42,463 nt of DNA, from positions 1 through 42,463 of the forward strand of contig JAGYLW010000004.1 of NCBI GenBank assembly GCA_018400915.1, written 5' to 3'. A model generated the notes under the pieces. That model was not told where the DNA came from. It saw only the letters and a list, made by a program, of their open reading frames with translations, and did no database searches. The stretch comes from Fidelibacterota bacterium (GTDB lineage: Bacteria; Fidelibacterota; Fidelibacteria; Fidelibacterales; Fidelibacteraceae). Below are positions 27,943 to 31,865 of this stretch, in pieces; the first letter of the stretch is position 1; every line of letters begins with the position of its first letter. Made by a program: the position numbers and the translations under genes.

Positions 27943-28326
27943 TTTGGGAACAGGGATTTCTACGGCTCCGTACCGGTGCTGATCCGTCCCGAACACCTTA
28001 TCGAACCCCTGCTTCGCAAAAGTAAGGTCTCTGAAGACTACGAGCTCTGGACCATGCAGACTGACGGCATGATCGTTTACGACCAGGATACCGATGAGAT
28101 CGGTAGGATGCTCTTCACCGACCCCGCCTATGCCGGATACAAAAGCCTCCCCGCCCTCGGCAGAAAGATCGCCGCAAACCGTGAAGGCAAAGGCAATTAC
28201 GTTTATCTCGCCCCCGGAAGTGATAAAAAAGTCATTAAGGAGGTCCTCTGGGAGACCATTGCACTGTATGGCTGCGAGTGGCGCATCGTCCTGGGATTTC
28301 GTCCCTTTGAGGAAAAGAAGCTGTAA
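27943..28326 (+). pseudogene. 5'-truncated remnant of a Cache-type sensor domain protein
   Basis: The frame is open from just after a stop at 27940-27942 to TAA at 28324-28326, about 127 codons. The visible ORF start (GTG at 27976) has no ribosome site, and the in-frame sequence before it (FYGSVPV) already reads as part of the same domain. Patterns such as VLIRPEHLIEPLL, LWTMQTDGMIVYDQD, IGRMLFTDPAY and WRIVL match the C-terminal half of a double-Cache ligand-binding domain. No signal peptide, first half or output domain is present, so I regard it as a fragment. It could instead be a small standalone domain if an unseen start exists. Confidence 0.55.
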
Positions 28327-28342
28327 ATACATGTGCAAAAAT

Positions 28343-28398
28343 AAAATGTAAAATATTATTACATAATGCTTGACAGAATAATTTACATTTTGTATTCT
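28343..28398 (+). promoter_or_regulatory. Promoter with inverted-repeat operator of the Panacea toxin-antitoxin pair
   Basis: The promoter is TTGACA (28370-28375), 17 nt, TATTCT (28393-28398). A perfect 10-bp inverted repeat brackets it: AAAATGTAAA at 28343-28352 and TTTACATTTT at 28382-28391, the second arm lying in the spacer. An extra TTACAT at 28359-28364 makes ATGTAA-N7-TTACAT with the first arm, so three half-sites are present. The gene that follows encodes an XRE helix-turn-helix protein, so self-repression is the natural inference. Confidence 0.7.
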
Positions 28399-28438
28399 TC
28401 TCTGCATCTTAATAAACAGCAAGTACAGAGAGAATAAT

Positions 28439-29215
28439 ATGAGCACCTTTTTAGAAATGATCCGCAAAAACGAGGGGGTGACGCAACAACTTCTGGCAAG
28501 CCGGCTGGGAGTTACCCGGCCCACCTATTCAAAGATCGAAAAAGGGGAGCGGGATCTGACGCTTACCGAAGCCAGGAAACTTGCGGAATTTTACGGTATG
28601 CGTGTCGAAGACATCGTTCAGGAACGCAAAAAAGCGGATCATCAGTTAATTATCGAAAAAGATGCACTTCAAGAAAAAACAGCCGCAACTGACATGCGTA
28701 TTTCCGTGCCGCAGGAGAATATCAGAAAGCTCAAGGAAGTCCTGCTGTATATTCTGGAAAAACTGGGCGCAAAACCGAATATCGGACAGGCGGTGATCTG
28801 TAAGCTCTTGTATTTTATTGATTTTGATTACTACGAAAAGTATGAAGAACAACTGATGGGTGCAGTGTATATTAAAAATCATCACGGCCCCACACCCGCA
28901 GGCTTTAAAGATATCTTGAAAGAAATGGAAAAAAACGGAGACTTGCTGGGTGTCACAACAAAATATTTTCAATACAAGCAGAAAAAATATCTTCCCCGCA
29001 GGTCCGCTGATCTCACGAATTTTTCCGGGCGTGAAAAAGAATTGATCGATACCACCATAGAACGGTTTAAGGATTTTAATGCCAAAAAAATGGAAGATTA
29101 TTCACACCGTGATGTTCCCTGGATAAGCGCTGAAGATCAACGGAAAATTGATTATGAGGCTGTTTTCTACCGGACTCCGGAATTTTCCCAACGTCAGTAT
29201 GAAGATGAAGTATGA
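28439..29215 (+). CDS. XRE helix-turn-helix / Panacea (DUF4065, SocA-like) predicted antitoxin
   Basis: A protein of 258 residues. Residues about 5-60 are an XRE-family helix-turn-helix (VTQQLLASRLGVTRPTYSKI, then ERDLTLTEARKLAEFYG). After a linker, residues about 95-230 carry the Panacea/DUF4065 domain: KPNIGQAVICKLLYFIDFDY, then HHGPTPAGFKDILKEM, and a late YSHRDVPW. Panacea domains neutralise many unrelated toxins and are usually encoded just before them. The downstream gene is a RelE-like protein overlapping by 17 nt. The N-terminal DNA-binding domain and the upstream inverted repeat suggest autoregulation. The pair looks lower in GC than its neighbours, consistent with horizontal transfer. 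Confidence 0.88.
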   Translation: MSTFLEMIRKNEGVTQQLLASRLGVTRPTYSKIEKGERDLTLTEARKLAEFYGMRVEDIVQERKKADHQLIIEKDALQEKTAATDMRISVPQENIRKLKEVLLYILEKLGAKPNIGQAVICKLLYFIDFDYYEKYEEQLMGAVYIKNHHGPTPAGFKDILKEMEKNGDLLGVTTKYFQYKQKKYLPRRSADLTNFSGREKELIDTTIERFKDFNAKKMEDYSHRDVPWISAEDQRKIDYEAVFYRTPEFSQRQYEDEV

Positions 29216-29573
29216 AGAGGATCCTAAATTTCAACGGGATGTAAAGCAACTGCAAAAACATTATCCTTCACTGAGAGAAGATCTCGAAAGCGCAAAAAGA
29301 GCTGCGATCGAGCTACTGCATATTCATAAGATAGACAATAGAAGTATAGAAAAAATAAACCAAGTTAGAAATACTGATGACTTGCAATTCTATAAGATCC
29401 GCAGTTTTGCCTGCAGGTCATTAAAGGGCAAAGGTAAAAGAAGCGGTATCAGAGTTATCTATGCCTGTTTTCCAAAACGTTTACAAGTCGTTTTTCTTGA
29501 GATGTATTACAAAGGCGATAAGGAAAATGAGGATAAGGAAAGAATAAAAGAATTCAGGAAACGGTTCCCTTAG
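29199..29573 (+). CDS. RelE/ParE-superfamily-like predicted toxin
   Basis: The start is taken as ATG 29199 (29205 is in frame too); the track's earlier start lies well inside the antitoxin gene. The product is about 124 residues. It opens with DPKFQRDVKQLQKHYPSL and ends with the typical RelE-like strand pattern IRVIYACFPKRLQVVFLEMY, then YKGDKENEDKERIKEF. RelE-like toxins are ribosome-dependent mRNA interferases; ParE relatives target gyrase; activity here is not proven. There is no ribosome site, so translation is probably coupled to the antitoxin through the 17-nt overlap. Confidence 0.75.
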   Translation: MKMKYEEDPKFQRDVKQLQKHYPSLREDLESAKRAAIELLHIHKIDNRSIEKINQVRNTDDLQFYKIRSFACRSLKGKGKRSGIRVIYACFPKRLQVVFLEMYYKGDKENEDKERIKEFRKRFP

Positions 29574-30228: not shown

Positions 30229-30735
30229 TCAGACCCTGATATGCAGCTGCGTCAGCATGCCGATGAAATCGATGCAATCGACGTCCTGTTCCCTGCAGAT
30301 GGAGGGCACCTTGTACCGGGATCTTTCGGAGGGAAAGGAGACCTGTTTTGCAAAGCTTACCACGGTCTTATCACGGAGCTTTGCGCAGGCGATCGTCCTG
30401 AGGTCGTTTTTGGAAGCGCCTTTTGAAAATCCGCTTGTTTCATAGGCTTTTTCCCATTCCAGGGACAGCCGTTCCGCCCCGGCGCTGAGCGGTGTTTCCC
30501 GGAAACCGTGTTCCGTCAGCCAGGTGCGCAAAGGATATTTTTTGCTTTTTTCCCCGGAGGGCAGGTTCCGGTCGGCGCTCGGGAGGGGGTCGATCTCGTC
30601 ATACACGGGTTTAATGATGATGATCCCGTCGCGGTGCGCGGCGATCTGCTCCCACAGGGAAGGGAACAGCTTCGCCGGGTACAATACATACCAGGCCGTA
30701 ATGAAGATGCTCGTGTCTACGCAGTATAGTTCCAT
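30229..30735 (-). CDS. DUF4411 PIN-like protein (predicted toxin partner)
   Basis: A protein of 168 residues matching the DUF4411 layout: CVDTSIFITAW near the start (Asp7), FPSLWEQIA, IIKPVYDEID with Glu47, and a C-terminal VPSICREQDVDCIDFIGML. The fold is PIN-like, and these acidic residues would form the nuclease metal site; the family is usually coupled with an XRE-ImmA/IrrE protein, as here. Its ATG overlaps the upstream TGA by one base (TGATG). The third acidic position is probably Asp in SKNDLRTIACAKL. RNase activity is inferred, not shown. Confidence 0.75.
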   Translation of the reverse strand: MELYCVDTSIFITAWYVLYPAKLFPSLWEQIAAHRDGIIIIKPVYDEIDPLPSADRNLPSGEKSKKYPLRTWLTEHGFRETPLSAGAERLSLEWEKAYETSGFSKGASKNDLRTIACAKLRDKTVVSFAKQVSFPSERSRYKVPSICREQDVDCIDFIGMLTQLHIRV

Positions 30736-31865
30736 CAGATCTTTTTTTCCATGTCCAGGACATGGTTCGCGTTTTTCAGGTTGAACATTTTTTTCATTTT
30801 ATACAATCCCATTTCGCCGTTGTGATAGGCCCGGAACAGCGTGCGGGTGTAGAGGCGGCCGTACTGACGGACGGCTTCCGAGGAACGGTCCCTTCTCGGG
30901 CCGCCTGCGGCATGCTTGAATTTTTCCTTCCGGGCCGCAAGTTCCGCTTCCCAGGCTTTTTCCAGCGCGTTGAATGTGTTCCGGTCAATGAACTGCATCT
31001 GTTTCAGGCGTACCAGGCAGGCACAGGGGCTGACGTTGAATTTCCGCGCGGTCCTTTTCACCGCCTGAAGGCTGTCGACGAATGCCGCTGACTCCGGCAT
31101 GGCGTTTTGGGGCATCAGGCAGCAGCCGGCGAATGCGTCACACCATTTTTCGCTCTGTGTCTGCGGGGCGTCCCAGCGGTTGATCGCATTCTCTTTTCTC
31201 AAAAGGTGCCCCAGTTCGTGGAAAAGGGTGAAGGACCGTGCTTTTCCCGGGTCCGAGTCATTGATGACGATAATGGGCAATACCTTATAGAAGATCGCCA
31301 TTCCCCGCATCAGTCTCCTGTCGACATGGGACCATTCCCGGTATTTTGATGTCAGGAAAATGAAGATCCCCCTGTCCTCCAGTTTGTTCCTCCATGCGTC
31401 GAAGTCGGGATAACCGTCAACCTCCAGCCATTTTCTGATCACGGTGGCGGCCGCTTCCGGAGTGCTGTGCGCTTCCAGCGGGGGAGGAGTGAAAGGTCCC
31501 GTGGGTTCGCCGTGCTCTTCCCGGGTCTCAAGCATGAGCTTGCGCAGGCGCTCAAGCATGGCGGTGATGCTGCGGATCCGGTGCGGATCGAACATATCCG
31601 GGCTGCTGCGGGAAAGGCGGCGGAACGCGGGGGCATTCTCGCTCAGCCGGTATTTTTCCGGCAGGCGGTCTGACACGAACACCCAGCGGGGGACTTTGTA
31701 AAGAGCGGCGAGCGTCTCAAGCTGTTTCAGGGTGGGTGTTGCCGATCCCGTTTCGAACTCGCTGATCCTGCCGACCTTTTTTTCCACGTCGGAGAGGTCG
31801 AAGCCCATTTGTTCACGGCAGGCCTTTAAAACATGCGGGTTTATCTCTTCGCTTCTGTAAGGCAT
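30735..31865 (-). CDS. XRE / ImmA-IrrE metallopeptidase family protein
   Basis: A protein of 376 residues. The N-terminus (about 8-65) is an XRE helix-turn-helix: SDVEKKVGRISEFETGSATP followed by TLKQLETLAALYKVP. The centre contains the ImmA/IrrE gluzincin motif TLFHELGHLL and the downstream ligand region SEKWCDAFAGCCLMP. The C-terminal region resembles the COG2856 helical domain. ImmA-type proteins cleave repressors in mobile elements; with DUF4411 they form predicted toxin-antitoxin pairs. It has an AT-rich promoter region about 90 nt upstream. It could alternatively be a regulator of a lost mobile element. Confidence 0.85.
   Translation of the reverse strand: MPYRSEEINPHVLKACREQMGFDLSDVEKKVGRISEFETGSATPTLKQLETLAALYKVPRWVFVSDRLPEKYRLSENAPAFRRLSRSSPDMFDPHRIRSITAMLERLRKLMLETREEHGEPTGPFTPPPLEAHSTPEAAATVIRKWLEVDGYPDFDAWRNKLEDRGIFIFLTSKYREWSHVDRRLMRGMAIFYKVLPIIVINDSDPGKARSFTLFHELGHLLRKENAINRWDAPQTQSEKWCDAFAGCCLMPQNAMPESAAFVDSLQAVKRTARKFNVSPCACLVRLKQMQFIDRNTFNALEKAWEAELAARKEKFKHAAGGPRRDRSSEAVRQYGRLYTRTLFRAYHNGEMGLYKMKKMFNLKNANHVLDMEKKI

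Follow-up and report, generated by a model that had tools for sequence, protein, structure and literature searches.

A probable PanAT-type toxin–antitoxin operon with putative tandem operators in a Fidelibacterota bacterium

Positions 28343-29573 of the window, which is the whole 42,463-nucleotide stretch of DNA analysed here, very probably hold a type II toxin–antitoxin operon of the PanAT kind. To judge from sequence and predicted structure, the antitoxin PanA would silence the toxin PanT and repress its own operon through tandem operators. The interest of Panacea antitoxins lies in their capacity to neutralise many unrelated toxins. In the published PanAT survey, 88 toxin clusters and 343 HTH-bearing PanA are described, with MqsR, Fic, toxSAS, PemK and ParE-like proteins among the partners (Kurata et al. 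2022, PMC8832971). HTH-GepA fusions with MqsR (YgiU)-like toxins were noted earlier (Makarova et al. 2009, PMC2701414). Since MqsR and ParE-like partners are already known, the present pair is a variant of the published PanAT. What is new is the conserved arrangement of the operators, together with a C-terminal tail characteristic of PanA proteins that have a RelE partner; both appear to be undescribed.

The panA gene (28439-29215, forward strand) encodes a protein of 258 aa, characterised by Pfam matches above cut-off, a structural model and an alignment of 46 PanA. The fusion of a DNA-binding domain to a Panacea domain, claimed in the original prediction, is borne out, with both HTH_3 (an XRE HTH; residues 5-57, E 2.6e-14) and SocA_Panacea (PF13274, DUF4065; residues 121-228, E 4.2e-18, 66.7 bits against a cut-off of 25.7) lying above the Pfam cut-offs. 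In the model, the HTH is ordered and is joined by a linker (63-91) to the Panacea domain; linker and tail (246-258) are both disordered. No MqsA zinc-binding domain was matched in PanA, the SocA equivalog model gave 15.2 bits against a cut-off of 190, and the antitoxin is an HTH-Panacea protein rather than one of the RelB type.

To survey the association of the two genes, P0002 was searched in 245 genomes of the phylum of the window. A profile was run against two further phyla, with 392 and 380 genomes, the phylum of the Phycisphaerae record L035 being one of them; the survey also covered genome contigs, viral contigs, plasmids and phages. Strong toxin matches were defined by an E value of about 1e-14 or better, and only loci with upstream DNA present were counted, three further strong loci being cut by a contig end. 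A Panacea gene lies directly upstream in all 47 counted loci and carries an HTH in 44 of them; the HTH-less exceptions are a virus of methanogens (L039), a viral contig (L042) and L058. In L054, panA is frame-broken. The locus is a conserved two-gene unit, with a distance between the genes below 100 nt, that recurs in more than one species; it is known here from three bacterial groups, from two viral contigs and from one virus of methanogens. Conversely, each of the 12 full-length relatives of PanA in the phylum has the toxin beside it except that of G014, whose panA sits at a contig end. Among weaker toxin matches, those of Leptospira and L059-L062 are without Panacea, and L087 has one. Toxin distances correlate with Panacea distances (r 0.54) and with HTH distances (r 0.65) over 43 pairs, with none of 2000 permutations as high. 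On the genomic side, the homologues are always co-encoded, and the finding that had been named as counting against the original prediction, homologues never encoded together, did not arise.

The pair is patchily spread, being present in two of the ten genomes of the genus, and its flanks are not common to G003 or other relatives, as expected of a mobile module. The flanking genes are non-syntenic in relatives, so no empty insertion site can be demonstrated. Just upstream, an ORF at 27976-28326 shows 68-70% identity to the C-terminal part of a reading frame of about 500 aa in G002 and may be a gene remnant adjoining the module. The search for close plasmid or phage homologues returned only distant ones, namely Leptospira plasmids and the virus of methanogens with its HTH-less Panacea. 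On the plasmids (L037 and L038, 2287-2824), a related RelE toxin stands beside a 74-aa partner that is unrelated to PanA and belongs to no known family. In the virus (Caudoviricetes sp. vir080, a virus of Methanobacteriales; L039, 1605-2490), the HTH-less Panacea gene and the RelE-like toxin gene lie near an integrase, and both are annotated merely as hypothetical proteins.

The pair might act as regulator and effector in phage defence rather than as a plain addiction module, with Panacea sensing a phage cue and freeing the toxin. This role is somewhat less likely than not. Panacea has been proposed as a sensor (PMC10440598), and viral contigs and the virus of methanogens are among the carriers of the pair. 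Moreover, a second putative toxin–antitoxin pair lies 1 kb downstream (30229-31865, reverse strand), consisting of an XRE + Peptidase_M78 protein resembling RmrA of RosmerTA (PADLOC E 5e-17) followed by a 168-aa DUF4411/PIN-like protein. However, no defence gene cluster is established for the pair, which is absent from PADLOC as such; neither PADLOC nor NCBIfam yielded a specific family for it. A role in phage defence is compatible with the toxin–antitoxin explanation preferred here.

The toxin gene, panT, runs on the forward strand from an ATG at 29199 (or 29205) to 29573 and encodes 124 aa with a predicted RelE fold, as judged from an AlphaFold model and the homologue alignment. The first ATG produces the 17-nt overlap with panA that had been claimed, and the second, which fits the homologue alignments best, would give 11 nt. 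By sequence, panT falls below the Pfam RelE cut-off (E 0.065, 13.9 bits against 27) and matches HigB-2 in the PDB weakly (E 0.07). The claimed RelE likeness finds its support in the model (mean pLDDT 85.6), which has an alpha/beta fold of the RelE (BECR) type. Its best Foldseek matches are archaeal RelE (1wmi, E 2.4e-4) and HigB2 (8a0x, E 8.0e-4), followed by RelE, YoeB and HigB entries. Residues K66, R85, Y88, E101, Y103, K105, K108, E111 and R115 are invariant among homologues, and a Leptospira toxin related to panT reaches 28.3 bits, above the Pfam RelE cut-off.

A toxin of this RelE/ParE fold could instead poison DNA gyrase in the manner of ParE, or hit another target, rather than cut mRNA. 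The fold is common to ParE, ParE-domain partners of Panacea are reported (PMC8832971), and for the homologue L034 the matches to ParE and to RelE are both weak. Such a target is nevertheless unlikely for panT: the closest structures to its model, RelE, HigB2 and YoeB, are all mRNA-cleaving, basic residues and a tyrosine are conserved (K66, R85, Y88, K105 and K108), and the Leptospira relative belongs to Pfam RelE. Cleavage of mRNA is the most likely activity of the toxin.

Upstream of panA, the promoter of the original prediction, TTGACA-N17-TATTCT, is found at 28370-28398 on the forward strand. Its -35 box (TTGACA, 28370-28375) is conserved in homologues, and its -10 box (TATTCT, 28393-28398) follows after a 17-nt spacer. 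The 10-bp inverted repeat that had been said to surround this promoter is perfect, with forward-strand arms AAAATGTAAA (28343-28352), upstream of the -35 box, and TTTACATTTT (28382-28391), inside the -35/-10 spacer; the -10 box lies outside it, so the repeat does not surround the promoter. Across the 42-kb window, the arm AAAATGTAAA is found at two places, where 0.08 would be expected. Judged in this one genome, the repeat is only modestly significant, since shuffling the AT-rich intergenic stretch yields a perfect repeat of 10 bp or longer in 1.7% of cases (P 0.017).

The stronger symmetry in the window is a 19-bp dyad with perfect 6-bp arms at 28346-28364, ATGTAA-AATATTA-TTACAT (ATGTAAAATATTATTACAT), taken as the putative operator O1. 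It stops 5 nt short of the -35 box, and an identical dyad occupies the corresponding position in L023, L029, L035 and others. A weaker 19-bp dyad, TTGACAGAATAATTTACAT (28370-28388), covers the -35 box and spacer and is taken as the putative operator O2, with the TTG of the -35 box as its left half. Neither dyad is assigned a strand. The two share the core TG-N13-CA, their centres are 24 bp apart, and the complete tandem occurs nowhere else in the 1.7-Mb genome. The predicted third half-site, TTACAT (28359-28364), is indeed present, but two tandem operators are a better reading of the bracketing repeat with its extra half-site: the three half-sites are three of their four halves. An HTH_3 domain in the antitoxin and two putative operators over its own promoter are consistent with an autorepressed type II operon.

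The operator layout was compared in the promoters of 46 panA genes, of which 32 were left after removing PanA at least 70% identical. The pattern was formulated and tested on the same loci, with no hold-out set, and the following enrichments are to be read accordingly. The O2 pattern TTG-N13-CA is present in 24 of the 32 homologues against 4.4 expected, at N13 only, and is missing in eight. TTG-N12/13-ACA followed by a -10 element likewise occurs in 24 of 32, compared with 0.70 by dinucleotide shuffling (maximum 5 in 1000 shuffles) and 0.009 per 130 nt elsewhere in the same loci. When TG-Nk-CA was counted for k from 6 to 21 in the 32 promoters, enrichment appeared at k=13 alone (52 vs 14.2, z 10.7). 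Tandem TG-N13-CA pairs spaced 23 or 24 bp from centre to centre are present in 13 of the 32 loci, where shuffling gives 0.09 (maximum 2), and in none of 14 control Panacea loci, which are HTH-less or have another partner. This absence ties the tandem to the HTH. Some panA promoters (L034, L043, L044) are TTG/TAnnTTTG-like, in the Bacteroidota style, yet in them the O2 half-site keeps its register.

The repeat AAAATGTAAA, which was to be sought before homologous pairs, is not conserved as such; it was rejected as a conserved unit, the half-site being variable (TTTACAT, AACAT, GTACGATA-like in L030) and the TG-N13-CA geometry alone being shared. The claim that the module has its own operator gains support from this spacing and from tandem conservation among homologous promoters. 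That the repeats are chance in AT-rich DNA or ordinary promoter features, as the shuffles of the window alone might allow, is rejected as highly improbable, since only a single spacing is enriched, and this in loci that have diverged deeply and to a level far above shuffles. The tandem excess, the absence of the tandem from the control Panacea loci and the rarity of the pattern in other DNA of the same loci also speak against it.

The tandem arrangement resembles lambdoid repressor operator pairs. In the available text of two papers (PMC8832971, PMC10440598), self-regulation of HTH-bearing Panacea antitoxins is merely presumed, and no description of a PanAT operator was found in the accessible portion of the literature on PanAT. 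The conserved geometry makes self-control directly testable, as it gives the exact bases to mutate.

The linker and the tail of PanA are strongly conserved despite their predicted disorder. Both RIxVP (87-91), within the linker motif RISVPQ (residues 87-92), and the tail pattern FYR..YSVR.Y.DE, in PanA FYRTPEFSQRQYEDEV (residues 243-258), are kept in most of the 46 aligned PanA. Nine further Panacea proteins of the phylum, all with neighbours of a kind other than RelE-like, lack the tail. It is kept as FYRDPEYIVREYDE, in the form YIVREYDE, in the HTH-less PanA of the methanogen virus (L039), which has a RelE-like partner and lacks RIxVP. L058, the most distant PanA, is without it. In a panA of the same genus (L023; G003:C168), an in-frame TAG stands at the start of the tail (about 1478-1510), with SQRQYDDEI readable beyond; it is a recent nonsense change, an assembly error or readthrough. 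Given this loss of the tail in G003, the tail may be dispensable, or the G003 gene or assembly may be damaged. The two segments are the best candidates for contacting the toxin, and we infer from the conservation pattern that the tail would do so, possibly together with the linker. Occurring with RelE-like partners, the tail is a candidate neutralising segment and bears on whether Panacea neutralises or senses. In earlier work, tested PanA antitoxins neutralise their partners through complex formation (PMC8832971), and neutralisation can stem from Panacea itself or from added elements (Kurata et al. 2023, PMC10440598).

In the proposed mechanism, PanA, with its XRE HTH and Panacea domain, would bind the RelE-fold toxin and hold it inactive; free toxin would most likely behave like RelE and HigB2 and cleave mRNA at the ribosomal A site. 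The gene overlap would couple translation of panA and panT. PanA, alone or with toxin, would bind O1 and O2 as two HTH dimers, which could cooperate because centres 23-24 bp apart place both near the same face of the DNA. The dimer on O2 would cover the -35 box, blocking RNA polymerase and holding the operon down. If PanA were lost, or if the Panacea domain answered some cue, the toxin would be freed, translation would drop and the operon would be derepressed, a step suggested by type II toxin–antitoxin biology and the sensor proposal in PMC10440598.

A broader proposal, nearly balanced but leaning slightly against, is that HTH-Panacea/RelE modules belong to a coherent lineage that has spread widely by transfer. 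Its members would share an undescribed operator code, consisting of tandem 19-bp TG-N13-CA sites with centres 23-24 bp apart and the TTG of the -35 box serving as half of O2, and a partner-specific C-terminal tail. Neutralisation of the RelE toxin would fall to this tail, and Panacea would be free to act as a sensor.

Several known systems resemble the module in part. SocAB (type VI) shares the Panacea family domain, but the SocA model scores far under its cut-off and the partner here is RelE-like, not SocB. HigB2-HigA2 and RelBE share the toxin fold and, for HigA, an HTH antitoxin with autorepression; PanA, in contrast, is not RelB- or HigA-like outside the HTH, and its gene comes first, whereas higBA places the toxin first. 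MqsR:PanA of B. fungorum (ZBD-HTH-Panacea) also joins a RelE-superfamily RNase to an HTH-Panacea antitoxin. There, however, a zinc-binding domain neutralises, while here the HTH is directly N-terminal, with no ZBD. As in the PanAT described in the available text of PMC8832971 and PMC10440598, a Panacea antitoxin, often with an N-terminal HTH, is encoded first and adjoined by a short toxin gene; the present module differs from them in its conserved tail, FYR..YSVR.Y.DE, and no operator is described for them in that text.
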